A stretch of 51,600 nt of DNA from a virus. Shown here one piece after another: positions 1-17,592 of the stretch. The translations under genes and the position numbers were made by a program. Each line of letters begins with the position of its first letter. The first letter of the stretch is position 1. The stretch lies in IMG/VR virus record IMGVR_UViG_3300030333_003501, positions 1-51,600 of that record. One strand, given 5' to 3'. A model generated the notes under the pieces. The model was not told where the DNA came from and did not search any database. It saw only the letters and a program-made list of their open reading frames with translations.

Positions 1-42
1 TGGTTGGATGTGAGAAAGCAGATGGAGGATAAGTTACAATGA
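1..42 (+). CDS. 3' end of an upstream gene (partial)
   Basis: The first reading frame is open from the window edge to a TGA at 40-42 and encodes the last 13 residues (WLDVRKQMEDKLQ). The stop overlaps the ATG of the next gene as ATGA, the arrangement seen repeatedly in this cluster. The next gene's ribosome binding site (GGAGGAT, 24-30) lies inside this tail. Nothing can be said about function from such a short piece. Confidence 0.6.
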   Translation, partial: WLDVRKQMEDKLQ

Positions 43-254
43 GTTGGGAAGATATAATGAAGCGTGTTCAAAGAGACACACATCTTCAATTGCAAGATTT
101 AGCATTTGAGTTTGAGGATGTTGTTGATATATTGAAAGATATGGCTACTGAAGAAATACCAAAGACAAGGGATATGACTAATCCTGACCATGTTAGAGAT
201 GTTAGAAAGGCTCTACAACAAATCAAAGAAATGGATTTATTCAAGTTGAGGTGA
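39..254 (+). CDS. Small MSW-tagged protein (71 aa), unknown function
   Basis: The 71-residue protein begins MSWEDIMKRVQRD, the tag shared by several proteins in this window, and the rest is predicted helical and charged. The start is supported by GGAGGAT eight bases upstream and by the tag itself. It overlaps the preceding stop by four bases and is followed after seven bases by another MSW-tagged gene. No catalytic motif is visible. By inference it is a virion-internal or assembly protein addressed by the tag, but only the tag supports this. Confidence 0.75.
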   Translation: MSWEDIMKRVQRDTHLQLQDLAFEFEDVVDILKDMATEEIPKTRDMTNPDHVRDVRKALQQIKEMDLFKLR

Positions 255-261
255 AGATGCA

Positions 262-711
262 ATGAGTTGGGAAAATATACTATCAAAGTCAATCATTCGC
301 AAGTCAGATTTCGATTTTACTTGGAATGAAATAGAAGTTGAGGACTTAGACCTAAAGAATGTTCCAAAAGAATTGGAGAACATGGATGAGGGTTTCAATA
401 CAGTAGATGTTACGGCTGGTGACGCTACCATTGAAGGCGGTATGAACTTAGAACTTAGGACTTGGGGAGTTAAAGGAATTTGGAGTAGTGCTAGAGACAT
501 AGAGTTTGTATTGACTTTTGAGGACACAGAATCCGACCTTTATGAAAACATAGATGTTAAAATCACAGATAATATTGAGGATGACAATATCGAATATCGT
601 GGATTAAACATAAATCCCTCATACATACATGTAGAAGTTGATATGAAAAATCAGAAAGACCCCTCACAGTTTGAAACGAAAGCGACTATCTATTGGCAAG
701 GAGTATATTAG
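262..711 (+). CDS. MSW-tagged protein (149 aa), unknown function
   Basis: The protein begins MSWENILSKSIIRK. After this helical tag the sequence looks beta-rich, with alternating acidic and hydrophobic residues (for example DIEFVLTFED and YIHVEVDMKN), which suggests a small beta-sandwich domain joined to the tag. A GAGGTGAAG ribosome binding site precedes the ATG. The gene lies between two other MSW-tagged genes, apparently in one operon. No known family is recognised. The shared tag on an otherwise unrelated fold is the main reason to treat the tag as a portable address signal. Confidence 0.8.
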   Translation: MSWENILSKSIIRKSDFDFTWNEIEVEDLDLKNVPKELENMDEGFNTVDVTAGDATIEGGMNLELRTWGVKGIWSSARDIEFVLTFEDTESDLYENIDVKITDNIEDDNIEYRGLNINPSYIHVEVDMKNQKDPSQFETKATIYWQGVY

Positions 712-719
712 GTGATAAC

Positions 720-2645
720 ATGAGTTGGTTTCAAGTTTTGAAGGATGAGGAAAAGCCTAAGAAAATTGAGCCAAAGAAAGTGAAGCCTCAAGTTATGGGA
801 TATAATGAAGAGAGGAAGAAGTTCCATAGAAGGAGAGATGAGAAAATTCGTAGGGAACGAGAATCTGCTAAGACTAAGGATGCTAACATCTTCGACTTTG
901 GAAAGCAGGAAGAGGAGAAAGAACCTGTTGACTATTCCACTAGCAGAAATTTCGCCACTGGAAGATTGAGGGAAGTGTGGCAAGCATCTTTCGAGGATGA
1001 CAGTTGGAACAAGTTTCTAGAGGAAAACTCACAAGATGGGAAACTAAAGCCTGATGTCAAACGCAGTGTGTTGGCTGCTAGGAAATTACTCGCAGGGGAA
1101 ACAGTAAATCTTAGTGGAACAAAATATAATTTGAAAAATCCATTTGGTGCGAAGAAAGACGCAATGTTGGAGAGATTGAACACTGTGACTTTGCGAGGAA
1201 CAAAGACCAGTAATATTCGTGAGTCCATGTTATCTGATGTGGATAAGTTCATCGAAGATGGGGAATATCAGAAACTACTTGAGATGCTACAAGGAGAAAA
1301 ATCTCGCAGTCGAGTTCGTAGATACATTGCTACAAAGGAAGAACTTTCTCGCAAGATTACAACTGACTCTGAAGAAGAACATCCTGAGTTGGTAGAGATA
1401 AGAAAACTTCTGAAGATAATGGGTATGCATAGTAAAGCAGACATACAGGGAAGTATAGATGAGGACACTGTGGTAACATACATCAAACTTGTCGCTGATT
1501 CATCTAGAGGAGCAACCCCATCGAAGAAGGCTGAAGCAATTAGTATGCAACATAGGAATTCTCTAAATGCCAAATCAATGTTTAGTGGAAAGAAACTCCT
1601 ACCTGCTTTGGATTATATTTTGCAGAATTCGCATTTGGATACTAGTAGAATACCAACTAGTTACAAGAAGAGGTCAGCGAAGGAACAGAATGCTATCACT
1701 AGGCTTATGTCAGGTAAGGGACTAAGACAATATCCCGCATTGAAGGTTTTGTATGAGAAGAATGATGGGATGGAATATCAACAACCGATAGAAGCCTACT
1801 ATGGCCCTGATAACAAAGAAGACAGAATCCTTGCTTATAGTAGTGGAGATTTGGGAACAAAATGGGACACTATGAAAAGAAAGGCAGATAAGGCGATTAG
1901 AGAATTGTTTATCCAAATTAAAGAAAACCCTTCAGCAGAAGATGAACTTCAGAGTCTCTTGGGTGGAGACACTGATGTTTCTATGACCCCTAAGATTAGG
2001 GATGATATCGTTGCTGCCTTGACGCATGAGGATGATGAGGACATCCCCAAACTGTTTAACTCCGCTATTGATGATTTAGGCATTAGAGATAATTTCACAA
2101 CCATTCGTGAGATAGAATCCAAAATTGGTGATATTGGAGATGAGGAAGAAGAAGGTGAAGTGGTTATTGCCTTGAGGAGAATGAATGAGGTAGAAGGTAA
2201 ACTGATACCAAAGGCTGCTGATAGAGAAATACTATCGTTTTTCCATGAGGAGAAGATGGATATGTGGTCAATTCTAGATAGTGCATTGGATGATGATTTG
2301 GACACATTCAATACACAAGGCAAAGCAGGTGGAACTCTGAATAATATCATTATTGTATTGAGGACATTAAGTAGGATGTTTAGCACAGCAGAAAATCAAA
2401 TAGACCCTGAAGACATTCTAGATGGTGAGATAACAGCAGACGAATTCAAAGAACAACTGTCGGATAAATACAACACCATCAGGCAAGATTTCTTTGATGC
2501 AGTAGAAGCAAACATGAAGAGAATAAGTTCTGAAGGTAGAAGGTTAGGGTTTACATTGCCTCTGCAAGCGGGGTCGAAGTATGGAGTCAAGAAGAAAATC
2601 GAACCCATCACATGGATACAGTATGCTACGGGGGTATTAGAGTGA
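720..2645 (+). CDS. Large MSW-tagged helical protein (641 aa), unknown function
   Basis: I place the start at ATG 720, giving MSWFQVLKDEEKPKK, because GGTGAT lies just upstream and the tag matches its neighbours. The upstream in-frame start at 693 would overlap the preceding gene and hide the tag. The first 60 residues after the tag are very basic and probably disordered. The rest is long, charged and predicted alpha-helical, with no enzyme motif seen. The end overlaps the GTG start of the next gene (GTGA). A large basic helical protein with a putative capsid-address tag could be an internal core or ejected protein, but this is inference. Confidence 0.8.
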   Translation: MSWFQVLKDEEKPKKIEPKKVKPQVMGYNEERKKFHRRRDEKIRRERESAKTKDANIFDFGKQEEEKEPVDYSTSRNFATGRLREVWQASFEDDSWNKFLEENSQDGKLKPDVKRSVLAARKLLAGETVNLSGTKYNLKNPFGAKKDAMLERLNTVTLRGTKTSNIRESMLSDVDKFIEDGEYQKLLEMLQGEKSRSRVRRYIATKEELSRKITTDSEEEHPELVEIRKLLKIMGMHSKADIQGSIDEDTVVTYIKLVADSSRGATPSKKAEAISMQHRNSLNAKSMFSGKKLLPALDYILQNSHLDTSRIPTSYKKRSAKEQNAITRLMSGKGLRQYPALKVLYEKNDGMEYQQPIEAYYGPDNKEDRILAYSSGDLGTKWDTMKRKADKAIRELFIQIKENPSAEDELQSLLGGDTDVSMTPKIRDDIVAALTHEDDEDIPKLFNSAIDDLGIRDNFTTIREIESKIGDIGDEEEEGEVVIALRRMNEVEGKLIPKAADREILSFFHEEKMDMWSILDSALDDDLDTFNTQGKAGGTLNNIIIVLRTLSRMFSTAENQIDPEDILDGEITADEFKEQLSDKYNTIRQDFFDAVEANMKRISSEGRRLGFTLPLQAGSKYGVKKKIEPITWIQYATGVLE

Positions 2646-5188
2646 AACCAAATGTAGACTATGGCAAGGCATTTGCTCTTTTCATTGAATCAGGAGCAGA
2701 TTCTCTGAGAGAATACATGAACAGTCTCAACGGAGATGCTACTGAAAAACTTACGATGAGGGATATGAAGGCATGGCCGGATGACATATTGCATTCATAT
2801 TTGAGTAAGAAGTCTAGTTCTTCTGATGAAAGTGACATAGCGATATTGCGAGGAAATCAGTTTCAAGGTAGGTTAATCTACAATCAAGATGGTTCTTTTA
2901 GGGACACTGACCAAATCAGAGAATTAGTGGAAACTGAATTGGATAGTAAGTTTCCTGCTCTAGATAACATACGAGCAAAAAAGAGGGCCGTGTTAATTGA
3001 CAAATTGATGACTCTATCTGCACCGAAGGAGTCCGGTAAAGCGTCAGCAATTATGGGGAGTAAATCACAAGTAATTGAGGCTGCTTCTAAAGATGCTGAT
3101 TTGGAAAAAATAGTAGGGCTATTCATTGAAAATAGGGATAGGAGAAAACTGACCCCAAAGAAACTTTTTGAAGATTATTACAATACCATTCACGAAGACA
3201 AGACTCCCAATTATAGAAAGTGGGCAACTTACGCACAGAGAAATTACAGACTAACATTCACTAGTGCAGATTTGAAGGAAGCAATTGACCTTCTAAGAAA
3301 TGAGATACCTCCTGAGTTCAAGCGACCTACACAACCGTTGCTTGAAGAACTGATTCAACTTCATGATACTAAGAGTTCTAAACAAGGTCGGTATCAAATA
3401 TCAACCTTGAGTGCTTCAGATATCATAGGTAGATTGGACATGAAAAAGGCAGAGAAACGCAATGACATCTACAAGTATTGGAAGGGAAAACATTCAGAGT
3501 TTGCAGAATTTACAAAGGCACATAATGCATTTGTGGCTGCTATTGTTGATTTGGATTTATCACAACATGAGGAACTCAAAAGAAAAATAGATGAATTTTC
3601 TGAGATTGAAGTTGATGAATTGAATTACATAAAATTGTATAATCCTGTTGAGATTAAGGATATTGATAAGATTGAGGACAAGGCACTGATACTCCTAGAA
3701 GAGTTCCTAAAAAATCAGAGTGAGTTACCTGAAGAGAAGATAATGTATACGCAAAAAGTTCCCGGCGTAAAGGATAGTTCTGATGTTACAGACTATACTG
3801 CTTCTGAAGCAGATACTGAACCAGTAAAAGACGATTTGGAAGAAGAGATACTAGATACATTAACAGATATTACTGTGAGAAAGGTTGACCCGCTTTATGC
3901 CTATATCTTAGAAGAAACTGATGCTTTACCTGCTGGTGCTGTGATAGAAGACCAGTTAGATGACATCGAAGATTTATTGAAGACTGGACTAATTATAGTA
4001 GAAGTTGGAGACCTACTACCTGCATTAGAGAAGTTCTTGGCTCATCTTAAGAAAAGTAAGGCAGGTAAACTAAAGGAATATTATCTTCCTGCTATGACTA
4101 AAATGATGCCTCGTAAAGACCCTAATCCAGCAATTGCAGAATATCTCAAGATGTTTGCTCAATTTATTGAATATGGTGAAAAGAATGAACTCCAATCTAA
4201 AGGTGGAACTACTGGTTTGAAACCAAAGGGTGGGCGGAAAAGAACAGTAATTGGTAGGTCAGGAGTAAATGCTAAGACACATATGAATGACTTCAAGGAC
4301 TTGGGGATTACTGAGAAGTTTCAACTGCTTCTTGAAAGCATTGTGAAGTTTTTCATTGAGCCTAGTAGAAACCAAAACAGACCATTCGATGATGAACTTC
4401 CGTTTATCGAGCAGACAGGAAGTAGGCCAATTGAGAGAATTGCTCAACAGCCACAAACAGGTGAAAGCCCATTCATACATCTTCTAAGGATGGAAGGGGC
4501 AGATTGGAAATTGAATAAAGAGCAGTTGAAGCAAATTGCAGACTTTATGAAAACTATTACTGGAATTAATGTAGGAAGCGCACAGAATGAACTGTTGAAT
4601 AAAACTGAGAATCTAGGCGATTTATTGAATGATATCTTTGCTGGTGAGTTAGAAGAAATGATAGAGATAGAATTGGGTAATTTCCTTCATGGTGTTTTCA
4701 GAGATGCAAACCTACCTGATATGAAATTCGGTTTGGGAACAAAGCAGAGTGTAGCAGAATTAAGTGGGAAGTATAAGAAAAATGAAATCTATCCCTTTGA
4801 GGCTCTGTTTAATCACATCTATCTCAAGAAGGAATCTTACACTGACAAAGACAGTGGCGTAGACGGAGCAGAAGAATACATTAGACAGATTCAAACTGCG
4901 GAACGGGAGTTAGATATCATCAAGTCTCAAGAACAGAAATTGATTCTTCAAGCACATGATGAAATCAGAAAGATGTTAGGTAAACCAATCTACTATGGGA
5001 TGGCTAGTATTGATAATTATGATGCTGTAAACAGTGCTATCTCTTACATGAGCGAGACATACAATACAGACATAACTGCAATGGATGTCGAGAATGTAGT
5101 TAATGAATTAGACTCAATGAACAATATCAGTGTGAAGTATGGTGTTCCTGAAGAGGGGGTCTATTTCCTCAAGGCAAACTTCAGGTGA
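2642..5188 (+). CDS. Large helical protein (848 aa), unknown function
   Basis: The chosen start is GTG 2642 (VKPNVDYGKAF), which overlaps the previous stop as GTGA and is preceded by GGGGGT at 2630-2635. An ATG at 2612 is possible but lacks a good ribosome binding site. The product is acidic and mostly helical, with low-complexity acidic stretches around residues 385-425 and a basic GGRKR patch near residue 540. It lacks the MSW tag of its upstream neighbours. No family is recognised. Its position just before the GNAT-like and terminase genes suggests a virion or packaging role, without direct evidence. Confidence 0.75.
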   Translation: MKPNVDYGKAFALFIESGADSLREYMNSLNGDATEKLTMRDMKAWPDDILHSYLSKKSSSSDESDIAILRGNQFQGRLIYNQDGSFRDTDQIRELVETELDSKFPALDNIRAKKRAVLIDKLMTLSAPKESGKASAIMGSKSQVIEAASKDADLEKIVGLFIENRDRRKLTPKKLFEDYYNTIHEDKTPNYRKWATYAQRNYRLTFTSADLKEAIDLLRNEIPPEFKRPTQPLLEELIQLHDTKSSKQGRYQISTLSASDIIGRLDMKKAEKRNDIYKYWKGKHSEFAEFTKAHNAFVAAIVDLDLSQHEELKRKIDEFSEIEVDELNYIKLYNPVEIKDIDKIEDKALILLEEFLKNQSELPEEKIMYTQKVPGVKDSSDVTDYTASEADTEPVKDDLEEEILDTLTDITVRKVDPLYAYILEETDALPAGAVIEDQLDDIEDLLKTGLIIVEVGDLLPALEKFLAHLKKSKAGKLKEYYLPAMTKMMPRKDPNPAIAEYLKMFAQFIEYGEKNELQSKGGTTGLKPKGGRKRTVIGRSGVNAKTHMNDFKDLGITEKFQLLLESIVKFFIEPSRNQNRPFDDELPFIEQTGSRPIERIAQQPQTGESPFIHLLRMEGADWKLNKEQLKQIADFMKTITGINVGSAQNELLNKTENLGDLLNDIFAGELEEMIEIELGNFLHGVFRDANLPDMKFGLGTKQSVAELSGKYKKNEIYPFEALFNHIYLKKESYTDKDSGVDGAEEYIRQIQTAERELDIIKSQEQKLILQAHDEIRKMLGKPIYYGMASIDNYDAVNSAISYMSETYNTDITAMDVENVVNELDSMNNISVKYGVPEEGVYFLKANFR

Positions 5189-5192
5189 GGAA

Positions 5193-5678
5193 ATGGCAGA
5201 CATACAAATCAAAGAAGTATCCCAACAAGATGCTTTTGATATGTGGAATAGGGATAACCCTGATGACCCGTTTGTGAGGGATGTTCCTTCTTGGTATGAT
5301 TTGGATAATTGGCTTATCAGAACAAATGATGGTGAAGTTGTTGGTGTTGCTGGATACAGTGACAAGGGAGACTATGGTATCTTAGGCGGGTTGAAGGCGA
5401 GAGACAAAGATGCACCGAAGGGTGGAGGAAACTGGAAGGCACTCTTGCAATATAGGATGGACAAGTTAGCAGGTAAGCCTAAGATTGTAGGTCTTAGGTC
5501 TAAAAAAATGCCACAGAAAACATGGGTTGCTATGCATAGAAATCTAAAATTTCAAACTGATGACTTGATGGGAATACCTGAAGATGTAGTGAATAACTTT
5601 CGACAGAGATATGGAGATGATTGGGGAATCAAGAAGAACTTGGGTTGGAGATTTATTATTACGAGAGGTGCTTTCTAG
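5193..5678 (+). CDS. GNAT-like acetyltransferase fold protein (161 aa)
   Basis: The start at ATG 5193 follows a GGTGAGG ribosome binding site and gives MADIQIKEVSQ; the longer frame from 5139 would overlap the preceding gene. The order of elements resembles the GNAT fold: an N-terminal strand-helix, a strand GEVVGVAGY, a glycine-rich turn (APKGGGNWKALLQYR) where GNAT proteins bind the acetyl-CoA pyrophosphate, and a late segment ending WVAMHRNLKFQ. The Q/R-x-x-G-x-G/A signature is only approximate, so the enzyme may be divergent or inactive. The substrate is unknown. The stop (5676-5678) overlaps the terminase GTG, which suggests translational coupling. Confidence 0.5.
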   Translation: MADIQIKEVSQQDAFDMWNRDNPDDPFVRDVPSWYDLDNWLIRTNDGEVVGVAGYSDKGDYGILGGLKARDKDAPKGGGNWKALLQYRMDKLAGKPKIVGLRSKKMPQKTWVAMHRNLKFQTDDLMGIPEDVVNNFRQRYGDDWGIKKNLGWRFIITRGAF

Positions 5679-7114
5679 TGAATGAACTGGACAATCTCGA
5701 TTTTGTATCTGCAATGGATATGGAGATTTCTAAGACTTCTTTTCCATATTTCTTTCAGAATGTATTGGGGATGATGTTTCCTCCTTACATGCAAGAATGG
5801 TTAGAATCAATGGAGAAGACAGACAGGACAGTTATTATTTGTAGCAGAGACCACGGAAAATCCGTCTTCATGCATTGTTGGGTTGTATGGAATTTGATAT
5901 TCCAAGAGCCACCATTTCAGATGCTTTACATTTCTTCTAACCAAAAGCAGACTCTCGTTCACATGAGGGAGATTGACAGATACTTCAATCATCCAGCATT
6001 GAAACAATTCAAGCCTAGTCGTGGATGGGCAATTGGAAATATTCAACTTACCAACGGCAATGCGATTCTAGAGCGTTCCGTTGGTTCTCAGATTCGTGGA
6101 CTTCACCCACAGGAGATTATCATTGACGACCCCTTGAAGGAGTTCAGCCTCGCTGGTATTCAGAGAGTCACTGACTGGTTCTTCGGTGACATGATTCCTA
6201 CTTTGCATCACACATCTAAGTTACGAATGATTGGAACTCCGTTCACATATACTGATATTTTTGCACAGTTAGAAGAAAATCAAGCCTACACGGTGACAAA
6301 GTATCCATGTCTAAATGCATTGAATGAACCATTATGGCCTGAGCGTTGGGACTTCGATGCACTCATGCAGAGAAAGGCTGAGATAGGTTCTCTCAAGTTT
6401 ACAAGAGAATACTTGTGTGTTCCTATCTCTACTGGAACTGCTCTCTTCAATCCTGAGTTCGTGAATAATTGTAAGAACAAAGAATATGTTCTGAAGTTGG
6501 GTCATAGAAAGGATAAGGGATACCGATACTATGTTGGTGTTGACCCTGCTATTTCGACTGATGGAGACTACAATGTAATCACAGTTCTAGAAGTTGATGA
6601 TGAACAAAACAAAACTATCGTGCATATTGACCGAGCAAAGAACATAGAATTCAGAGAGAACATAGAGAAGATTCGTTTGATTGGTAAAGTCTTCGAGCCG
6701 GAAGAGATTCTGTTTGAGACTAACACATTTGCGAAGGCGTTTACTCAAGAATTGAAAAACATGACAGATTTGAATGTTAGAGATTTCAATACAACAAGAA
6801 GGAAGAAACAAGAGATTATTCTTAATTTACAAATGAATATAGAGAATGGTAAGATGAATTTTCCATATGGCGATAATTCTAGTAGAAGGGTAACTAACTT
6901 ACTCATAGAAGAGTTGTCTATGTTCTCAATTACTGCCGCAGGTAAATTTGAGGGAGTAGGAGCGCATGACGATTTAGTGATGAGTTTGGCTTTAGCAAAT
7001 GCTGCCTCACAGGGAACAGGAGAGCAGTTTGTTTTACTAGATGACATGGACATCTTTGATGAACCTACTACTACTCGCAATCGTGTATCGGGTATCATGG
7101 GCATGAATTTTTGA
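5678..7114 (+). CDS. terL: Terminase large subunit (DNA-packaging ATPase/nuclease)
   Basis: This is the motor that pumps viral DNA through the portal and cuts the concatemer. Numbered from GTG 5678, the ATPase domain has a Walker A-like CSRDHGKS at residues 55-62, a Walker B IIIDD at about 147-151 followed by a polar PLKE, and a GTP coupling motif near 186. The RNase H-like nuclease domain has VGVDPA (Asp about 289), an ILFE strand (Glu about 347) and a C-terminal AHDDLVMSLALA carrying the last acidic residues. The GTG start is chosen because GAGGTG lies eight bases upstream; the ATG at 5621 falls inside the preceding gene. At 478 residues the length is normal for the family, and no intein is present. 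Confidence 0.93.
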   Translation: MNELDNLDFVSAMDMEISKTSFPYFFQNVLGMMFPPYMQEWLESMEKTDRTVIICSRDHGKSVFMHCWVVWNLIFQEPPFQMLYISSNQKQTLVHMREIDRYFNHPALKQFKPSRGWAIGNIQLTNGNAILERSVGSQIRGLHPQEIIIDDPLKEFSLAGIQRVTDWFFGDMIPTLHHTSKLRMIGTPFTYTDIFAQLEENQAYTVTKYPCLNALNEPLWPERWDFDALMQRKAEIGSLKFTREYLCVPISTGTALFNPEFVNNCKNKEYVLKLGHRKDKGYRYYVGVDPAISTDGDYNVITVLEVDDEQNKTIVHIDRAKNIEFRENIEKIRLIGKVFEPEEILFETNTFAKAFTQELKNMTDLNVRDFNTTRRKKQEIILNLQMNIENGKMNFPYGDNSSRRVTNLLIEELSMFSITAAGKFEGVGAHDDLVMSLALANAASQGTGEQFVLLDDMDIFDEPTTTRNRVSGIMGMNF

Positions 7115-7123
7115 GGTGATAAA

Positions 7124-8584
7124 ATGGGTGAGAAGGGAGATAAACTTAGGGAAGCGGCAGAACTTGCTGACCAAGAAGAAGAACTCCGTGAAAGGCAAGA
7201 AGCACTCACTGAAGAACTCAAAAGCCAATGGTTAGAATCACAACCAATAAGCAGTCACTTTGAGATAGAGAAGAGATTTGCAGAAGAATACAATCTTGGT
7301 CTCACTGATGCTAGAAAGGCAATTCGATTTGATTTGAAAAAATATCAGATAGAAGGAAAAGACATCCCTATGATGATAAAGGAACTCAGGCTATATCGTA
7401 GAACACTGAAAGGTGAGCCTAAGATAGCGGTAACAAAATCCATTGACAATCTCATCAATGCCTATTCTTCTCATTTAGATAGTAGTTTAGATAAGGTCTA
7501 TTGGATTAAGAAGTATAAATCTGCATTGAAGGATATGGCGTTATCTGAAGAAAACATAATCAAATTATCATTGATTGATGATGAAGAGACTAGAAGAAAA
7601 GTTGTAGATACATTATGTAAGTATTGGGAAGCGAGAATAGAAAGAGATGGTATCCCATATAATTCAGAATATGCCAAGTTAACTAAAGAGATGTCTGAGA
7701 CAAAGAGAGAGGTCAAGAAATCAATCAAAAAATATGTTGTTAACATTGGCCCTAAAGAATTAATCAAGAAACATATCGTCAGATTGGTCACTGAAGAACA
7801 AGGCATTTCTGCAAGACAAGTTCATGAAAGATTACCAAAGAATTTGTTTAGAAAATCTTCTCCTAGCATGATTGCTAAATTAGCAAAATCATCTAATGTG
7901 ACAAATGTTGATGGTGCATTGTTCAAGATGAGTGATGAAATCAAGAAAGACATCTATGCATACACTGCGGCATTCATTGACTCGGATGGATACATCACAA
8001 TGGATAAGAATCACAACCCAAGAGTAGGATTAGTAGCAACAGGAGATAGAGGTAAAGCCTTCATGTTGGAGATGCATAAATCACTAGGATGTGGTAGATT
8101 GCATCTAGACCAAAAATCCCCACAAGACACTAAACCAATTAATAGGTTAAATTTCTATTCTAGAAAGGATGTGGGTGAAATCCTAAGTAAGTGTATGCCC
8201 TATTTCAAATTGAAGAAAAAGAACGCTCAAATTCTTGTGGAACTTCTTCGTATGAAAAAGAGCCATAAGAAAGCAGACTGGTATAAGGCTAGGAAAGTAG
8301 AACTATTCAAACTCATGAAGTATGAAAATCATAAGGATGATAAGAATTATGATTTCGCAAAGTATGAAATTGATATAGATACTGTTGCTAAATACTATGA
8401 CAATGACAAGACAAAGGAGATGGATAAGTTGGAGGCCGTGTTGAAAGAGGATTCTGTTGATGCGGCTATTGATGACTTAGAAGAAATCGCAGAAGATTAT
8501 GATTTGGATGAACATGATTGGAGTTCTGTGGATGATGCTTCTGATTATTTATTCGAGCATAAAGTGAACGATGAGGAGGAATAA
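7124..8584 (+). CDS. Winged-helix plus LAGLIDADG-domain protein (486 aa)
   Basis: The start at 7124 follows GAGGTGAT. The N-terminal part (about 1-210) is charged and helical. Residues about 210-268 look like a winged helix (VTEEQGISARQVHERL, then a small basic helix). Residues about 275-385 resemble one LAGLIDADG homing-endonuclease repeat: YTAAFIDSDGYI carries the family motif with its acidic residue at about 280-291, followed by the strand and basic-helix pattern (HKSLGCGRLHL, RLNFYSRKDVGEIL). The tail is acidic. The gene sits between the large terminase and the portal, where a small terminase is often found. It may be a domesticated DNA-binding protein that fills this role, or a free-standing homing endonuclease. 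Active status is unknown. Confidence 0.7.
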   Translation: MGEKGDKLREAAELADQEEELRERQEALTEELKSQWLESQPISSHFEIEKRFAEEYNLGLTDARKAIRFDLKKYQIEGKDIPMMIKELRLYRRTLKGEPKIAVTKSIDNLINAYSSHLDSSLDKVYWIKKYKSALKDMALSEENIIKLSLIDDEETRRKVVDTLCKYWEARIERDGIPYNSEYAKLTKEMSETKREVKKSIKKYVVNIGPKELIKKHIVRLVTEEQGISARQVHERLPKNLFRKSSPSMIAKLAKSSNVTNVDGALFKMSDEIKKDIYAYTAAFIDSDGYITMDKNHNPRVGLVATGDRGKAFMLEMHKSLGCGRLHLDQKSPQDTKPINRLNFYSRKDVGEILSKCMPYFKLKKKNAQILVELLRMKKSHKKADWYKARKVELFKLMKYENHKDDKNYDFAKYEIDIDTVAKYYDNDKTKEMDKLEAVLKEDSVDAAIDDLEEIAEDYDLDEHDWSSVDDASDYLFEHKVNDEEE

Positions 8585-8585
8585 A

Positions 8586-10217: not shown

Positions 10218-10339
10218 GCGAACTCCTCGACATCGTGAAGAAGTGGAAAGAAGAAACAGAAAAGCGTAATGCAGAAACGGATGAGAGAATAAGAAAAGAT
10301 TTGGAGAGAATACAAGATGACATGGTGGAACATAATTAA
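10214..10339 (+). CDS. Short coiled-coil protein (41 aa), TTG start
   Basis: A TTG at 10214 overlaps the portal stop (TTGA) and follows a strong GGCGGGTAGG ribosome binding site. The frame encodes SELLDIVKKWKEETEKRN and continues as a charged amphipathic helix to a TAA at 10337-10339. It fills the otherwise empty gap between the portal and the next gene and overlaps that gene's start by 23 bases. The ribosome binding site, fit and composition favour a real gene, but it is short and has no recognised family. Confidence 0.5.
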   Translation: MSELLDIVKKWKEETEKRNAETDERIRKDLERIQDDMVEHN

Positions 10340-10499
10340 AGTCGCAGGACAAGAAATGGCAGGTGGAGATATGGGGGCTACTAGTGATGGTGGAATCAAA
10401 CCTGCAAAGGATTTGGAAGAAGCAAGGGAACATCCAGTTGACCCGGAATTGGCAGAGGAAAAGCAGGATATAGAAGATGTAGAATATGCAGATTACTAA
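10317..10499 (+). CDS. Small protein with variant MTW tag (60 aa)
   Basis: The protein begins MTWWNIIKVAGQEM, which fits the pattern M(S/T)W-x-x-I-x-K of the MSW-tagged proteins, then continues as an acidic, glycine-rich, probably disordered tail ending DIEDVEYADY. GGAGAG lies upstream of the ATG. The gene overlaps the preceding 41-aa frame and ends just before the next ribosome binding site. The function is unknown. If the tag is a capsid address, this is one of the simplest carriers of it. Confidence 0.7.
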   Translation: MTWWNIIKVAGQEMAGGDMGATSDGGIKPAKDLEEAREHPVDPELAEEKQDIEDVEYADY

Positions 10500-10509
10500 G
10501 GTGAATAAA

Positions 10510-10740: not shown

Positions 10741-10744
10741 TTAA

Positions 10745-12187
10745 ATGACACAGACGCAAAATTTCATGGATGTTTTGCGTAAGAAGAAGAAAGATGAAGA
10801 TTACTTTACTGGTGAAGAGGATATTGCTGATTTCGGAGGCGATGTTGAGCAAGATACTGATGCAGCAGTTGAGGTTTCGTCTGATGATGCATATGAAACA
10901 TCTTTAGGTGAATATCGGGAAAAGGATGTTAAGAGGACTAAAAGGCAAAAAGAAGCAGAACAGTCAAAAAAGGATAGAGCCGCTAACATTCGTTTATGGA
11001 AAATAATCCTAGAAGAATACAGCCAACATGGTGATATTCAACATGAGAATTTAAGTCAGCCTCTGATTCAATTTTCTAAATCGTTTCTTAGGCCGAAGGC
11101 AGCAAGTGCTGAGAAAATTATGAGGTTCTATCGTTCTTTAGTTCCTAAAAATAAGGATGAAATGCCAACGGCAGATGAAGAATTATTAGATTTGTTCTAT
11201 GAAAAAATGACTGTTGAGAACATAAAGGGTTTAGAATTACTTCAAAATAAATTTCAACGAGAAGAAAGAATATACAATGGTAAAGAGTCATTAGAAGTTT
11301 TACGAGATTTCCTTCAAACGGTAAGTGAGGTCAGAGCCTCTGCTCTTACTGGAAAGGGTATGACTAGACTGAAATTGGATAAACTAAACCGACTCATTAA
11401 ACTAGGATTGAAACAGGCTGATTTCAGTGAAGGAGGAAATTTGCAAGCAGATGATTTGGATATGTTATTGCAGAAGTTTAGGGTAGTTATCCTCACTCTT
11501 TCAAAGATAAAAAGAGAGCAAAAAAAGTTATTCAAGAAGGCCGACAACCCATCTCAAACTAGACTTCCCAAGTATGTCCAGCGTAAGATAAACCAAGTAA
11601 AAATAAAGGATGAGAAAAAGAGGAAAGAAGCACAGCAAAAAATAGCGAGGGATTATTGGGACTCTATAACGGGTAAAAAGGAACGAACACCCAAAGAACA
11701 AAAAAGAGTTCAAAGAATAATGGATTCTGTAATAAATCGCTACAAGACAAAGTGGGATTCTCTTTCTCCTGAAGAACAGAAGAAATTCAGAAAGAAGAAA
11801 GATGTAACTGGGCTGCTTAGAAGATTTAATCAGGATGCAAAGACTTACAGATTTGACCTAAATGTTGAAGATAGAAATTGGGAAGTTGATGAAACACAGG
11901 ATGAAACACAGGATGAATCAGAACCAACGCCGTATGATAATCTTGATTTCACAAGAAGAGGAACTATACTGCCTGATGAGACAGCAGACCAAATTGACTA
12001 TCTGATTGATAAGGTCGAAGAAGCATATCAAACTGTTTCTAATTTAGTAGATACTCCTAAAGAAAAGGGAATCTTTGCGACAGCAGAAAGAACCAAGAAA
12101 ATAATGAAAACATTAGTAGATGAAATGATAGGAGATTTCAAATTCACTATAAATAATAATGAAAAGAGGGCAATTAAAATTAACTGA
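10745..12187 (+). CDS. Charged helical protein (480 aa), unknown function
   Basis: The ATG follows GGGGATGATT. The N-terminus, MTQTQNFMDVLRKKKK, resembles a degenerate form of the MSW tag (aromatic-x-x-V/I-L-K/R) followed by lysines, as in the 720-2645 protein. The body is helical and very rich in Lys and Glu, with a basic central part (for example TPKEQKRVQRIMDSVINRY) and a short tandem DETQ repeat encoded at about 11888-11918. No enzyme motif is visible. Together with the 720-2645 protein it could be a bulky internal virion protein, but only composition and context point there. Confidence 0.7.
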   Translation: MTQTQNFMDVLRKKKKDEDYFTGEEDIADFGGDVEQDTDAAVEVSSDDAYETSLGEYREKDVKRTKRQKEAEQSKKDRAANIRLWKIILEEYSQHGDIQHENLSQPLIQFSKSFLRPKAASAEKIMRFYRSLVPKNKDEMPTADEELLDLFYEKMTVENIKGLELLQNKFQREERIYNGKESLEVLRDFLQTVSEVRASALTGKGMTRLKLDKLNRLIKLGLKQADFSEGGNLQADDLDMLLQKFRVVILTLSKIKREQKKLFKKADNPSQTRLPKYVQRKINQVKIKDEKKRKEAQQKIARDYWDSITGKKERTPKEQKRVQRIMDSVINRYKTKWDSLSPEEQKKFRKKKDVTGLLRRFNQDAKTYRFDLNVEDRNWEVDETQDETQDESEPTPYDNLDFTRRGTILPDETADQIDYLIDKVEEAYQTVSNLVDTPKEKGIFATAERTKKIMKTLVDEMIGDFKFTINNNEKRAIKIN

Positions 12188-12208
12188 GTAGTTTTGGGAA
12201 TGGATAAT

Positions 12209-12529
12209 ATGTCATGGCAGGAGATACTCAAGGCTTCAGAATTTCTTGAGAAATTAGAGCCTAAGCAGAAGAAGAAACTCAAGAAGTTGCTTCAATCCAC
12301 ACAACCCACAGAATACATGGGTCAAGAAATGACAAAGTTAGAAGATGTAATCAATGAGTTATCAGAACTTGATATGGTGAAAGCAGATAAATCTCTTACT
12401 AAGAAGATGAAGTCCTTTTCCGAAAAGAACCTAGATATACTCGCAAGTGCTGCTGAACTTCGTAAAGACTACGAGACACTGTATGACCAAATCAGAGGTG
12501 TCGTATATCCAAAGGGGGAGAAGAAATGA
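12209..12529 (+). CDS. Small MSW-tagged helical protein (106 aa)
   Basis: The start at ATG 12209 gives MSWQEILKASEFLEK. In-frame starts at 12194 (TTG) and 12200 (ATG) exist, but the tag lines up with its neighbours at 12209. The ribosome binding site is weaker than usual, so the start rests mainly on the tag. The rest is a lysine- and glutamate-rich helical protein. Its stop overlaps the next ATG (ATGA). It is the first of three consecutive small tagged genes. The serine codon in the tag (TCA) differs from the AGT of its neighbours, which argues that the peptide rather than the DNA is conserved. Confidence 0.75.
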   Translation: MSWQEILKASEFLEKLEPKQKKKLKKLLQSTQPTEYMGQEMTKLEDVINELSELDMVKADKSLTKKMKSFSEKNLDILASAAELRKDYETLYDQIRGVVYPKGEKK

Positions 12530-13032
12530 GTTGGCAAGATATACTAAAAGATACTAGAAGTGAACTTAAGGAAATGTTCAGTCAGGATGAAGATATAATA
12601 GAAAGATATGATTCATCACCCGATGAAGTAAAAAGTTTTGTAGATATGCTATTGGAAAAGATTTCCGAAAATCCTAACACGAAGGCACGATACAAGTCGA
12701 GTATTTACGCTATGCTTGGTTTTGGAAGAGAGGATTATTCTACTTCAAAGACTATTGATGCTGAAACTAAAGCAGCAGCAGAATACCTTGAAGATTTAAG
12801 CATACAAGATGTTCCTGAATTCAAAGAACTAAAGAGAATGTTTGATGATTTAGAAGAAATGCTTGAAAATAAATTGCCTGTTGCTATTATGAAAAAAGCA
12901 CCGAAAGAGGCTCAAGAAGGCTTAAGGGATGATAATATCAGAGAACACATTGTTCATTTAGTGCAAGATATGTGGGGCAATAATGATACATTTATTGATG
13001 AAACGCTTAGAGCATATATGGAGGGAAGATAA
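12526..13032 (+). CDS. MSW-tagged helical protein (168 aa)
   Basis: The protein begins MSWQDILKDTRSELK. The ATG overlaps the previous stop and is preceded by GGGGGAGAAG. The remainder is acidic and helical, with no cysteine cluster or catalytic motif. Its stop is followed at once by the next tagged ATG (TAAATG). Its first 18 coding bases are identical to those of the next gene, yet the proteins diverge after the tag. Confidence 0.8.
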   Translation: MSWQDILKDTRSELKEMFSQDEDIIERYDSSPDEVKSFVDMLLEKISENPNTKARYKSSIYAMLGFGREDYSTSKTIDAETKAAAEYLEDLSIQDVPEFKELKRMFDDLEEMLENKLPVAIMKKAPKEAQEGLRDDNIREHIVHLVQDMWGNNDTFIDETLRAYMEGR

Positions 13033-13290
13033 ATGAGTTGGCAAGATATAATTAAAGAAGAGAGAGAACTATCGCCCGGTCAGAAGTCATTTATTGATAG
13101 GGCAACACGCACATTACATTCACAGAAACAAGAAGAGGCAGAAACCAATGAGGTTATGCAACAACTAAAGGTCATCTATGAATCGCAGATGCAGGATGCC
13201 ATGCGACAAGCAAGGACAGGAGCAACAATCGCAGAGTTGAAAGATGGCTTAGTTAATGCCTTAGAAAGTGAATTAGAAATCATGGAGTGA
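13033..13290 (+). CDS. MSW-tagged helical protein (85 aa)
   Basis: The protein begins MSWQDIIKEERELSPGQ, with GGAGGGAAG upstream and an ATG directly after the previous TAA. The body is a single charged helical region rich in Gln and Glu (SQKQEEAETNEVMQQLK). No family is recognised. The gene is the third in the run of small tagged proteins that leads toward the ligase and capsid genes. Confidence 0.8.
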   Translation: MSWQDIIKEERELSPGQKSFIDRATRTLHSQKQEEAETNEVMQQLKVIYESQMQDAMRQARTGATIAELKDGLVNALESELEIME

Positions 13291-13295
13291 TTAAG

Positions 13296-13532
13296 ATGAG
13301 TAAAGAAGAAGAAAACAGTGAGATGCTACTATTGATGAAAGAACTAGTGGATAGAGTAAAATCCCTAGAAGAACAAGTATACAACAAGGACAATGTTTTG
13401 ATGAAGGCTGGTCTTGTTGTTCATGAGACTCCAACACCTGCAATGAGTAACAATATGACAACTCCAACAGGTGAAACAATTGGGACTATGTCTTGGGAAG
13501 ACATACACAAAATGGTGGAGAAAGCAGGGTGA
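13296..13532 (+). CDS. Coiled-coil protein with C-terminal MSW tag (78 aa)
   Basis: The start at ATG 13296 follows GGAGTGA (13284-13290); the GTG at 13287 overlaps the previous stop and is less likely. Residues about 5-35 form a coiled coil (LLLMKELVDRVKSLEEQVY), then comes a Pro/Thr-rich linker. The protein ends in TMSWEDIHKMVEKAG (tag codons from 13488). The same tag closes the scaffold protein as MSWGDIHNFARKVN, also after a coiled coil and linker. This protein may therefore be a small second scaffold or a tag-bearing adaptor. Confidence 0.78.
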   Translation: MSKEEENSEMLLLMKELVDRVKSLEEQVYNKDNVLMKAGLVVHETPTPAMSNNMTTPTGETIGTMSWEDIHKMVEKAG

Positions 13533-13536
13533 TTAA

Positions 13537-13758
13537 ATGCCGGAAAAAGTTACGAAAGAAGAGAAGATTGTCGAGTTGGCAATCAATAAAGCGAAGGAAG
13601 TTATACAGGAAGCAGAGCATCTAGGCACTATTGAATTGGATGAAGATGTTATGGGTGAAGAGGTTAAAGTCAAGAAACCAAAGAAGAACCCATCTGAAGA
13701 GTCACTACCAAAAACTAGCAACATTGATGGTAAGGAAGACAAAGTAAACGAAGGCTGA
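13537..13758 (+). CDS. Small charged protein (73 aa), unknown function
   Basis: The ATG at 13537 follows GGGTGATT. The first half is helical (KEEKIVELAINKAKEVIQEAEH) and the second half is a disordered Lys/Glu/Pro/Ser stretch. No tag and no known family are seen. It lies in tight spacing between the C-terminally tagged protein and the ligase. Confidence 0.65.
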   Translation: MPEKVTKEEKIVELAINKAKEVIQEAEHLGTIELDEDVMGEEVKVKKPKKNPSEESLPKTSNIDGKEDKVNEG

Positions 13759-13771
13759 AGGTAGATGAGAG

Positions 13772-16339
13772 ATGACTACTTCAGGCGTGGCCTTTGAAAA
13801 AGAGACTAAGGCATTAACAAAACGAGTCTTAGATTTTTTTGAGAGGGTGCGCTATGCATACCTTTCTGCTAAAGAGAATCCAAAGGAATATGGTAAGAAG
13901 TGGAAATCTACTGTCAAATCAATACGAGAGGAACACGATGGTCTTGGTGAGTTTGCTAGGGAATTGAAAGAATTCGTCACTGAAAAAGAACTCTTTGATG
14001 ATAAGGCATATGATGTAGAATCAAGCACTGCTAAAGGCATCTATGAAGATATCAAAAGAATGAGGTTTGAGTCTGCTGGTGCGGCAGACCCATTCTCTAA
14101 ACAACTTGGAGAAAAGGTCTTGGAAGTTTTGTTGAAAGACAAAGCGACATTTGCAGCATTCATTCATTATGCCATGCGTAGCCATGCTAACCCAATACCG
14201 AAAAAGGCATGGGAAGAAAATAATTTGAAGCCTGATGAAATAACTCAGGGTTCTATGGGTCTTGATATAGAAGAGAAGGATATCCCATTGTATATCATTG
14301 AGCATTATGGTGACGACAAGGATAGTAAAAGAGTGAAGGGTAAATTCAAGGAAGCACTTGCAACATTGAAGGAAGTATTTGGTGAGACATATTCAGATGA
14401 TAAATGGCAAGCGTTGGAAGAAATAGACATCGCTAAGTCTGATGATGAGAAGCAAGAGATAGATTTTCTAATCCCTAACAAGCCGATGTATCGAATATTT
14501 GAATTGAAGGATATGGAAGATATCAAGGGGATGAGTGGGGAGTTTGTAGTCCAAGAGAAGTATGATGGAATGCGAATACAGATTCATAAGTTTGAGAAGA
14601 AGGTGAAAGTCTACTCCTATAATCAAAAAGATATCACCGATAAATGTCCTGATATAGTGGAGAAGATGGACAAGAAAGCATTTGGTGATTGCATCTTAGA
14701 TGGAGAACTAATGTTGTTTCAAGGAGATGAGGCACTACATAGGGCGAGTGTAATTACTCATATATTCAAGAAGGAGATTGAGGGAACTAAACTTAGAGCG
14801 CATGTTTTCGATGTAATGAAACATGAAGGAAAAGACTTGACTGATGAGCCTCTTCGTGAAAGAATCAATATTATGTTCTATCAATATGCACAACACTCAT
14901 CTGAAGAATTGGCGTTTCCTTCCAAGAAAGATACTAGAATAGCAGATTCGGTTAAGGAAGTTGGAGAATATGCTGAGAAGATTATGGAGATGCCAACTTC
15001 TGAAGGTGTAGTCATAAAGGACATAGAATCCACATATTACATCGGCAAGAAGAAGAATCCTAAGTGGATTAAATGGAAGAAGTATGTTGATTTGGATGTG
15101 ATTGTTCTAGAAGACAAGAAAACCAAGAGTGGCCTACATTCCTATACAATGGGGATAGGGCCATTAAGTGCTGAACAAACTAGGGAATACAAGACAGTGG
15201 AATTAGAAGATAAGAACTATCTTCCTGTTGGTAAGGCTCTAAATACGAAAGTTTCTGTTGATGTCGGTAGTATAATTCGAGTTAAGGTAGATGAAGTCAC
15301 CAAGAAAGAAAAAGGATTCAGTCTTTACTCTGCTAAAGTCATAGAATTACCTGAAGTAGAAGAGTCTGATAAATTAGAGACATTAGAACAGTTAGCAACG
15401 AAAACAAAGAAAGCACTAGTGCCAAAGCATCCTTTCATTAAGCCATCTGATTTGGCTAACCCTCTTACTGTAATTGCAGAGTTACAAAGAGAGAAGAAAA
15501 ATAAGAAGAAAATCAAAAAATATCTTGTCACAGATTACATTCATGGTGAAGCAGAAATAATCTGCAAGCACGACTTAGAGGGTTTTACCATCTATGGGTT
15601 TGAAGGAGATTCTCTAATGCAGAAGAATGCTATTGCGTCTATGGATGAGATGAAAGAACAGTTAGATAAATTCATGAAGTCTCGTAAGTCAAAACTAAGG
15701 GTTGCTATAAGGGCAATGTTAGAAGAGAATGATGCTCCAATGGAGTTTGATGACATTGAAGAAAAACTCAGAGTGACCGATGGAGATGCGTATGAGGAGA
15801 TATTTGAGAATAAACCAAAGGAACTAATGTCTTGGATGAAGAATCAAGATTCGTTTATTTTCATATCACCAAACAAATTCGATGCATCTCCTTACAATAT
15901 CCAAAAGGACAATGAAGAAGATGAGGTAGTTGGAGAATTTGAAGTTCGTCAGCGTGATGATGGAAATCTAGATTTTATTATTCAAACTGAGAATAAGAAA
16001 ATGGCTTGGCTTATTGATATTGACGAGCCTGAGAATATCTATGATTTGTTTGGTAAGTCAGGAAAGTATCCTGCTAAGGTTGCAGAAACCGTAGATAGCA
16101 CAAAGATACTTGATGAGGGGGATTTAATCTTCGGTGTTCAGAAAGATGGATATCATGAATATAGAATGGAAGGAGATAAGTTTCAAACACGCATTCATTT
16201 CCGAGTAGTTCCATTAGATGAAAAGAAGTCTTGGATAGTATGGACAGGAAAGAAACAAGAGATGTTAGATGATTCATCTGATGAAGGAATCATTGATATT
16301 ACAAAGGATAAGTTTAGCAATTTAGAACTGCCTGAATAA
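13772..16339 (+). CDS. ATP-dependent DNA ligase with unusual N- and C-terminal extensions (855 aa)
   Basis: It seals nicks in double-stranded DNA using an AMP-lysine intermediate. The nucleotidyltransferase core lies at about 255-440: motif I EKYDGMR with catalytic Lys 263, DGELMLF at about 310-316, HVFDVMK at about 344-350, motif IV EGVVIKD at about 411, and motif V WIKWKKY at about 432-438. An OB-fold-like domain follows to about 535 (SIIRVKVDEV, FSLYSAKVIEL). The first 250 residues do not resemble the usual ligase DNA-binding domain to my eye, and about 300 residues follow the OB fold. Those include a winged-helix-like segment (about 650-710) and a beta-rich end of unknown role. Its position just ahead of the capsid genes is unusual and could mean the enzyme works on, or inside, the packaged genome. 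Confidence 0.88.
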   Translation: MTTSGVAFEKETKALTKRVLDFFERVRYAYLSAKENPKEYGKKWKSTVKSIREEHDGLGEFARELKEFVTEKELFDDKAYDVESSTAKGIYEDIKRMRFESAGAADPFSKQLGEKVLEVLLKDKATFAAFIHYAMRSHANPIPKKAWEENNLKPDEITQGSMGLDIEEKDIPLYIIEHYGDDKDSKRVKGKFKEALATLKEVFGETYSDDKWQALEEIDIAKSDDEKQEIDFLIPNKPMYRIFELKDMEDIKGMSGEFVVQEKYDGMRIQIHKFEKKVKVYSYNQKDITDKCPDIVEKMDKKAFGDCILDGELMLFQGDEALHRASVITHIFKKEIEGTKLRAHVFDVMKHEGKDLTDEPLRERINIMFYQYAQHSSEELAFPSKKDTRIADSVKEVGEYAEKIMEMPTSEGVVIKDIESTYYIGKKKNPKWIKWKKYVDLDVIVLEDKKTKSGLHSYTMGIGPLSAEQTREYKTVELEDKNYLPVGKALNTKVSVDVGSIIRVKVDEVTKKEKGFSLYSAKVIELPEVEESDKLETLEQLATKTKKALVPKHPFIKPSDLANPLTVIAELQREKKNKKKIKKYLVTDYIHGEAEIICKHDLEGFTIYGFEGDSLMQKNAIASMDEMKEQLDKFMKSRKSKLRVAIRAMLEENDAPMEFDDIEEKLRVTDGDAYEEIFENKPKELMSWMKNQDSFIFISPNKFDASPYNIQKDNEEDEVVGEFEVRQRDDGNLDFIIQTENKKMAWLIDIDEPENIYDLFGKSGKYPAKVAETVDSTKILDEGDLIFGVQKDGYHEYRMEGDKFQTRIHFRVVPLDEKKSWIVWTGKKQEMLDDSSDEGIIDITKDKFSNLELPE

Positions 16340-16340
16340 C

Positions 16341-16371
16341 CACCTACTTATTATAGTAAGAAAAATAGGTG
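16341..16371 (+). promoter_or_regulatory. Hairpin covering the ribosome binding site of the protease gene
   Basis: CACCTA (16341-16346) can pair with TAGGTG (16366-16371), and inside it CTTA (16347-16350) with TAAG (16357-16360), leaving an AAAAA bulge. The right arm contains AGGTG (16367-16371), the likely ribosome binding site for GTG 16378. Folding would therefore hide that site. It lies in one of the few real gaps in the window (16340-16377), and the central TTATTATAG could alternatively be a weak TATA-like element. Only the pairing is observed; regulation is inferred. Confidence 0.45.
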
Positions 16372-16377
16372 CAGTGA

Positions 16378-17592
16378 GTGTTCGCAGAGCAGGAGGTATT
16401 GATTAAGCAAGATAGTGTTGCTGGTTTTCAGATTCTAAAGTCGGATAACTTAGTGATTGGAGGCTATGCATCTATCGAAATAGTAGACAAGCAGAATGAC
16501 TTGATTACTCTCGAAGCACTAGAAAAAGCAGTTCAAGATTTCATGAGTGAGAAATCTTACAGAAATGTCATGTCTAATCATTCCAATGTTCAGGTAGGAG
16601 AGGTGATAGAGCAATACCGAGATACCAATGGTGTATTACACAAGACAGGTGTAGATGGTGTCGGATTCTATGTGGTTATCAAAATGAGAGATGACATAGA
16701 GAAGGCAAAGGAAATCAATAGGGGTATCAGGAAAGGAACATTACGCTCTTTCAGTATAGGTGGACAAGCAATATCAAAGAGAGAGAGAAAATCGGAGGAA
16801 TACGGGGAATACAACGAGATTGACAACTTGGAGTTGCATGAAGTTACTATATGTGAAAAAGGAATAAACCCTGAAGCGAAATTCGACATTTTGAAACAAG
16901 CGAAAGGAGGTAAAGAAATGACGGAAAAACTAGAGAAAGCACTAGAGGAACTTAATGGTCTGTTAACTCAGGTCAGAGAGGTCACTGGTGACTCAATCGA
17001 AAAGGAAGAAGAATTGGAGACAATGGATATGAATGAAGAAGAAATGACGAAAGAAGAAGAGGAAGTCGAGATGATGGAATCTGAGGAAGTTGAGAGCATG
17101 GATATGGAAGAGAAGGCTCTTGATGAGGACTCTACAAGAGACTATGAGGCCGGAGAAGAGGTAGTTAGTGGCGGAAAGCCAAAGGCTGCTCCTGCTGCGC
17201 TATCAGTTTCTAAGGGTCTAGAATCAGAAGATTTCACTACTCTCGATTTGAGTGCTGAAAATGTAGAGAAGGCTTACGAGGCTTTCAAGGCAGAGCAATT
17301 GGAGAAACTTGCATACGATAATCTATCGAAGCAGTTTGCTGACAGATTTGCTGCTGAACTTGATGTTAAGAAGTCGGCTGCTGAGAGAGCAGAATACGAT
17401 GCTCACGCAGAAGTTAGTGCTTTGAAGGAGGAGTTTGCAGAACTACGCAAGTCTCTTTCAGCAAAGGACAGCGAGATACAAAAGGCAACAGAAGTTGCAA
17501 TGTCACTCCCTGAAGGATTCCCAACAACTGCTGAAGCAGTCGCTGAGATGTCATGGGGAGACATACACAACTTTGCAAGGAAGGTGAACTAG
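16378..17592 (+). CDS. Prohead protease fused to scaffold (404 aa)
   Basis: Residues 1-175 are an HK97/XkdF-type prohead serine protease: GGYASIEIVDKQND, the catalytic histidine in MSNHSN (His 68), a serine in LRSFSIGG (Ser 124 or 126), and the closing strands LELHEVTICEKGINPEAKF. Residues about 181-404 are an acidic, Met/Glu-rich, coiled-coil scaffold that ends in EMSWGDIHNFARKVN. The GTG start at 16378 is supported by AGGTG six bases upstream; a later in-frame TTG has a poorly spaced site. The protease matures the shell after the scaffold has shaped it. A second start inside the gene is listed separately. The major capsid gene follows directly. Confidence 0.85.
   Translation: MFAEQEVLIKQDSVAGFQILKSDNLVIGGYASIEIVDKQNDLITLEALEKAVQDFMSEKSYRNVMSNHSNVQVGEVIEQYRDTNGVLHKTGVDGVGFYVVIKMRDDIEKAKEINRGIRKGTLRSFSIGGQAISKRERKSEEYGEYNEIDNLELHEVTICEKGINPEAKFDILKQAKGGKEMTEKLEKALEELNGLLTQVREVTGDSIEKEEELETMDMNEEEMTKEEEEVEMMESEEVESMDMEEKALDEDSTRDYEAGEEVVSGGKPKAAPAALSVSKGLESEDFTTLDLSAENVEKAYEAFKAEQLEKLAYDNLSKQFADRFAAELDVKKSAAERAEYDAHAEVSALKEEFAELRKSLSAKDSEIQKATEVAMSLPEGFPTTAEAVAEMSWGDIHNFARKVN
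16918..17592 (+). CDS. Nested scaffold protein from internal start (224 aa)
   Basis: An in-frame ATG at 16918 (residue 181 of the fusion, MTEKLEKALEEL) follows AAAGGAGGTAA, with GGAGGT at 16906-16911 and a six-base spacer. That is one of the best ribosome binding sites in the window. It lies exactly at the border between protease and scaffold. Translation from it would give free scaffold with the C-terminal MSW tag, in excess over the protease fusion. Nested scaffold genes inside protease genes are established in lambda (C/Nu3). That this start is used here is inference. Confidence 0.65.
   Translation: MTEKLEKALEELNGLLTQVREVTGDSIEKEEELETMDMNEEEMTKEEEEVEMMESEEVESMDMEEKALDEDSTRDYEAGEEVVSGGKPKAAPAALSVSKGLESEDFTTLDLSAENVEKAYEAFKAEQLEKLAYDNLSKQFADRFAAELDVKKSAAERAEYDAHAEVSALKEEFAELRKSLSAKDSEIQKATEVAMSLPEGFPTTAEAVAEMSWGDIHNFARKVN

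Follow-up and report, generated by a model that had tools for sequence, protein, structure and literature searches.

A short peptide at the ends of head-block proteins and of the prohead scaffold, a probable capsid-loading tag of Magrovirales-type viruses

A short peptide of the type M-S-W-x-D-I-L-K recurs in a marine virus fragment and its relatives, where it is real and all but confined to the termini of proteins, N-terminal in some and C-terminal in others. With moderate confidence, we consider this peptide to be a terminal capsid-loading tag of Magrovirales-type viruses, which would dock where the tail of the scaffold docks. The window, the whole 51.6-kb stretch of DNA that was analysed (IMGVR_UViG_3300030333_003501), encodes a terminase, a portal, an ATP-dependent DNA ligase, an S78 protease-scaffold and the major capsid protein, as assigned with Pfam and PHROG. 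A six-frame scan together with the open reading frame list confirmed that all nine copies of the peptide reported by the initial annotation lie in real frames. The proteins concerned, together with the proposed docking partner, are the following:

39..254, + strand, N-tagged protein of 71 aa, tag MSWEDIMK at 39-62
262..711, + strand, N-tagged protein of 149 aa, tag MSWENILS at 262-285
720..2645, + strand, N-tagged protein of 641 aa, tag MSWFQVLK at 720-743
10317..10499, + strand, small N-tagged protein of 60 aa, tag MTWWNIIK at 10317-10340
10745..12187, + strand, variant-tag protein of 480 aa, QNFMDVLRK near the N-terminus with Phe for Trp (MTQTQNFMDVLRKK)
12209..12529, + strand, 106 aa, member of the core N-tagged family, tag MSWQEILK at 12209-12232
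12526..13032, + strand, N-tagged protein of 168 aa, tag MSWQDILK at 12526-12549
13033..13290, + strand, N-tagged protein of 85 aa, tag MSWQDIIK at 13033-13056
13287..13532, + strand, small, probably coiled-coil protein of 81 aa, C-terminal tag MSWEDIHKMVEKAG at 13488-13529, followed by the stop
16378..17592, + strand, 404 aa, fusion of an S78 prohead protease with the scaffold, C-terminal tag MSWGDIHNFARKVN at 17548-17589, followed by the stop
17593..18954, + strand, major capsid protein of 453 aa, putative docking partner of the tag

The 16378..17592 product matched Pfam Peptidase_S78 and the PHROG category head maturation protease. The gene at 720 starts with an ATG within an open reading frame listed from a TTG at 693, and homologues of its product in G001, G004 and G015 keep MSWQDVLK or MSWQEVLK; likewise, the 12209 tag lies inside a frame listed from 12194. 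The suggestion that the 10745 protein opens with a looser form of the peptide gained support, as its relatives begin with MSFMDILRK or LSFMDILRK at the same place. The only other M[ST]W in a credible gene of the window is internal to the ligase (MSWMKNQD at 15827) and is not followed by the remainder of the motif.

Two other genes of the head block were recorded. In the window (13772-16339) as in the relatives read, the gene for the ligase, of about 855 aa, immediately precedes that for the protease-scaffold and is on the virion strand. Most long relatives have a further ligase, of about 515 aa, within their replication block; the head-block ligase might be packaged. Between terminase and portal (window 7124-8584) lies a gene for a 486-aa protein with a weak match to HNH endonucleases (phrog_5046, 2e-6) and a homing-endonuclease-like stretch.

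The capsid protein of the window has 576 relatives in IMG/VR. A family-B DNA polymerase was found in 11 of 12 long relatives and an ERCC4-type nuclease likewise in 11 of 12, and most long relatives, whose records reach 99 kb, encode a second ligase on the other strand; the window itself is a fragment without the PolB/ERCC4 module. Morphogenetic and replication modules are oppositely oriented in the long relatives, as in the definition of Magrovirales, which have genomes of 90-110 kb (PMC12999244) and are associated with Poseidoniales (PMC12999244, PMC10160649). The capsid protein of the haloarchaeal virus HVTV-1 aligned with that of the window at 27% identity over 87% (E 4e-17). PolB, ERCC4 nuclease, ligase, opposed modules, prohead serine protease and a Druskaviridae-related capsid protein are all shared with the Magrovirales morphogenetic module (PMC12999244, PMC10160649), and on these sequence characters this group of tailed viruses matches the published description. 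The hosts are probably abundant marine archaea, with Poseidoniales presumed from that match. A GTDB scan with the capsid protein gave no host link, its matches being three contigs only. Capsid relatives with 69, 60 and 45% identity occur on L142, L143 and L144, two of them binned in MAGs with the label Maricaulis and one with the label Altibacter, and are most likely on viral contigs mis-binned into these MAGs. One further record, G033 (IMGVR_UViG_3300021958_000021, 184733 bases), carries two different capsid genes at 70457 and 161908, about 91 kb apart, and may represent two joined magrovirus genomes or a chimeric assembly.

The distribution of the N-terminal tag was determined in the window and 13 relatives, 14 genomes in all, with head-module genes defined as those within 27 kb upstream of the capsid gene on the same strand. 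Genes were called by a simple longest-ORF rule; the automatic list caught five of the N-tagged genes of the window and direct reading seven. The strict motif M[STN]W..[ILVM][ILVMF][KRNS] opened 91 of 430 head-module genes versus 2 of 1149 elsewhere (Fisher 5e-52), and a broader motif 125 of 430 versus 4 of 1149 (3e-71), with these Fisher values treating kindred genes as independent and thus overstating significance; given this and the simple gene calling, they are indicative rather than exact. By the broader motif, each genome carried 4-15 tagged genes. After internal Met residues the strict motif was never found (0/8168). One of its two exceptions lies 1.8 kb downstream of the capsid gene. 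The density of the core motif per 10^4 residues was 22.6 at N-termini, 8.7 at C-termini and 0.15 in protein interiors, corresponding to enrichments of about 150-fold and 58-fold, respectively, over interiors. The motif thus clusters near capsid genes, and within these viruses it is not equally common in non-structural proteins.

At the DNA level, the tag pattern gave 2-14 matches per related virus record, and its reversed control gave 0, or 1 in two records. Among the matches listed in a scan of IMG/VR with the DNA form of the tag, 36 of the 50 contigs tested carried the same capsid protein; of the other 14, most of those with several matches were fragments with tagged genes from the same kind of virus, and several had a single match in unrelated sequence. 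Judged from these scans, the tag appears to be largely confined to the virus group of the window. No tags were seen in the head genes of HVTV-1 and two methanogen-virus relatives. Two tagged genes, G001:C1:86219 and G004:C1:3003, lie in the opposite gene block, some 57-59 kb from the capsid gene, and their tags have a common upstream reading (WGVCMSWF / RGVCMSWF).

We analysed 89 distinct N-terminal tags, in which Met1 and Trp3 are fixed by the search pattern itself. Within the limits of that pattern, Lys8 carried 4.1 bits and Ile/Val6 3.2 bits, and at pattern-free positions the information dropped to 0.8 bits at residue 9 and 0.3 bits at residue 12, so that conservation ends past residue 8. 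When residue 2 was left free it was S in 116, T in 13 and N in 8 of 160 cases, and residue 5, free in the pattern, was mostly D, E or N. Only M1, W3 and K8 align across 84 tagged proteins. By helix-capping rules, this residue pattern would correspond to a helix N-cap with a capping box and a hydrophobic staple. In AlphaFold models the predicted helix begins at the Trp both in the scaffold C-terminal tag (393-403) and in the 12209 N-terminal tag (3-9), with low confidence for the tag (about 50-60); in the 12209 model the body is confident, unlike the tag. Low tag confidence beside a confident body fits, as a model feature and no proof, a peptide that may fold upon binding.

The initial annotation had argued from differing serine codons that the peptide and not just the DNA is conserved. 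This argument proved weak for the N-terminal tags, where Ser2 is encoded by AGT in 67 of 69 cases versus 117 of 222 untagged genes, a bias suggestive of shared descent of the 5' ends or of an effect of start context; it stood for the C-terminal copies, which use TCT and TCA. Since the codons at positions 5-8 of the N-terminal tags are diverse and the C-terminal copies carry TCT and TCA, selection acts on the peptide, and the claim itself was upheld. The AGT bias is also the evidence for regarding the motif as a feature of the DNA or of translation initiation (ATGAGTTGG start context), or as a relic of 5'-end duplication, with no function at the protein level. We find this hardly credible, given the varied codons at positions 5-8, the other serine codons in copies at protein ends far from any start, the tagging of a third family (about 370 aa, see below) at its C-terminus, and the retention of the Trp despite GTG starts and shifted spacing. 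The translation-signal and duplication-relic readings were set aside on account of the C-terminal copies.

The bodies behind the tag are otherwise unlike each other, in agreement with the first reading of the window, and in the 14 genomes fell into 60 clusters without detectable mutual similarity. In the core 12209 family, Trp3 was invariant in 59 homologues down to 45% identity, and the linker between tag and body varied by up to about 12 residues; the homologues in L035 and L037 carry a Cys-rich segment between the two. Almost all family members missed by the first pattern carry variants of the tag (MSWFDTLK, MSWETTLK, VSWQTILK, MWFDILK), of which VSWQTILK begins with a GTG start. Scans of 84 tagged proteins against Pfam, PHROGs and PADLOC yielded almost no functions and no convincing defence-system match. 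The clearest match was a PAP2-type phosphatase domain in a tagged protein of G002 (Pfam 2.2e-7), and two tagged bodies matched DUF1540 (Pfam). A Foldseek search of the PDB with the 12209 model gave nothing with E below 3. The tagged protein L120:9940-10464 has two PAP2 phosphatase motifs, PSGH and SR...GxHxxxD, but not the usual full-length domain, and its sequence makes it a rare candidate for enzyme-like cargo.

The peptide also closes the scaffold, as had been reported for the window, and proved near-universal at the scaffold C-terminus in relatives. In the head loci, almost all complete scaffolds have [MLIV][STDA]W-x-[DE]-[IVL]-[HN] at their C-terminus, 13-17 residues from the end, and Trp393 was invariant across 57 aligned sequences. 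The C-terminal tag of the small protein family (about 80 aa) is the closely related M[DES]W-x-[DE]-I-[HN], found in 39 distinct forms and kept in relatives. A third conserved family, of about 370 aa, is encoded 20-25 kb upstream of the capsid gene, just outside the window, and carries the tag at its C-terminus:

L104:15984-17087 and homologues, - strand, C-tagged protein of about 370 aa, conserved family

After a variable linker these proteins end with [SDN]W-x-x-[IMV]-[MILV]-K or a close variant, with the Trp invariant in 12 sequences; a Pfam search with the body of the L104 protein and its homologues gave no match. N-terminal tags and scaffold C-terminal tags diverge past residue 6, with [LI]K at positions 7-8 in the former versus H at position 7 in the latter, and the docking site therefore need not be identical for both.

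Linkage to head genes, the terminal peptide of the scaffold and the dissimilarity of the bodies make it the simplest model that cargo borrows the docking peptide of the scaffold. The tag would be an eight-residue helix start, consisting of a hydrophobic residue, a helix N-cap (S/T/N/D), the invariant Trp, any residue, an acidic cap, Ile/Val, Leu/Ile and Lys, and its Trp, Ile and Leu face would fit a groove. The protease-scaffold and the small scaffold-like protein would attach through their C-terminal tags to the growing prohead shell, most likely by binding the major capsid protein on its inner face. The rapidly evolving N-tagged cargo proteins, several to about fifteen per genome, would, like the C-tagged family of about 370 aa, be incorporated into the prohead as it assembles. 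Release of the cargo by the linked S78 protease may follow, and the cargo would stay in the head for delivery with the DNA. Helix docking, partner, loading, cleavage and delivery are steps that we infer. The original idea of capsid targeting thus stands as to the peptide-level tag, its restriction to the head block, the dissimilar bodies and the scaffold copy, and the binding, virion location and cleavage that it implies are predictions. Profiles of the scaffold and the capsid protein gave no significant solved relatives. A read-through scaffold-stop-capsid chain, which is in the same frame in the window, was modelled with 70 aligned sequences, many of them covering one half, and gave a mean pLDDT of 44, a confidence too low to judge docking or contact with the capsid N-arm.

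The partner could instead be the scaffold or scaffold core, to which cargo would dock and still reach the prohead, the scaffold C-terminal tag serving self-assembly. The tail of the scaffold is also present on the small coiled-coil protein, and an affinity for the internal scaffold core is described for the internal-protein tag of T4 (PMC9026906); docking of the tag where the scaffold docks on the capsid protein, as first proposed, is therefore one live possibility of two. Against it, the C-terminal helices of the P22 scaffold bind the N-arm of the coat protein (PMC9965877), and we rate docking on the scaffold as rather unlikely.

We also considered recruitment to another morphogenesis hub (portal, terminase or a host factor, for instance); the tagged proteins would then act in assembly or takeover and stay outside the head throughout. 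Tagged genes flank those for terminase and portal, and the few tagged genes in the other gene block (G001 86219, G004 3003) fit this idea and are counter-evidence to head loading. The scans nevertheless found portal, terminase, ligase and capsid protein untagged and the scaffold tagged, which favours the prohead and renders another hub improbable.

Cleavage of the tags is possible, an S78 protease being present. A tag that is mainly a recognition or processing signal for this linked protease, marking cleavage rather than loading, would agree with the protease forming the N-terminal part of the tagged scaffold and with T4 head propeptides, which unite targeting and processing (PMC9026906). In the 89 distinct N-terminal tags, however, no conserved residues that could mark a cut site were found past residue 8, and the C-terminal copies leave only 3-7 residues past the core; we judge this reading slightly more improbable still than another hub.

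Loading of cargo through the scaffold's docking peptide, the reading that we prefer, has a working likeness in T4, where an N-terminal capsid-targeting sequence of about 10 residues loads internal proteins with hypervariable bodies (PMC9026906, PMC3012670). Both systems have a short N-terminal peptide common to diverse, fast-changing small proteins (IPI-IPIII in T4), a prohead protease and a scaffold, and the T4 trait of a short N-terminal peptide on unrelated head-module proteins is present in these viruses. Here, however, the host domain is another one, the scaffold and two other conserved families carry the peptide at their C-termini, and far more genes per genome are tagged. No family membership is claimed, and loading and cleavage in these viruses are predicted from sequence. 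By analogy with T4 internal protein I (PMC3012670), one may speculate that the cargo has a role in host takeover.

For the scaffold end, the C-terminus of P22 gp8 and the N-terminus of SPP1 gp11, a helical hook that fits density on the capsid protein (PMC6813328), offer a parallel: the scaffold end is helical, as is predicted here with low confidence, and the binding element can lie at either end (PMC9965877, PMC6813328). The P22 element is a helix-loop-helix of about 30 residues, whereas the viruses of the window would have one short predicted helix of about 11 residues. Moreover, unlike in P22 and SPP1, the scaffold-end element is here copied onto many non-scaffold proteins. In encapsulins, cargo-loading peptides also put unrelated cargo into an HK97-fold shell by means of a short terminal peptide. 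This is a likeness of description rather than of compared sequences, and encapsulins are bare protein shells, whereas the virus has a scaffold and a protease and places the tag at either end. A shared terminal peptide is not described in the open-access text of the magrovirus literature found (PMC12999244, PMC10160649), and on that literature the peptide is provisionally new.

A bolder extension, which we put forward tentatively and hold to be somewhat less than an even prospect, is that one terminal peptide serves as a universal head address code. Scaffold, helper and up to about fifteen cargo proteins would compete for one site on the shell, and the virion would be a modular delivery vehicle that gains cargo with each gain of a tag, including enzymes and small metal-binding proteins acting early in the infected cell, for example against host defence. 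If the loading interpretation is true, it would provide a sequence rule predicting which uncharacterised proteins of very abundant ocean viruses are packed and probably injected, as well as a portable tag of very few residues with which proteins could be loaded into capsids. It would also suggest that cargo can be recruited by copying a scaffold docking peptide onto unrelated genes, which the T4 tag shows less directly.
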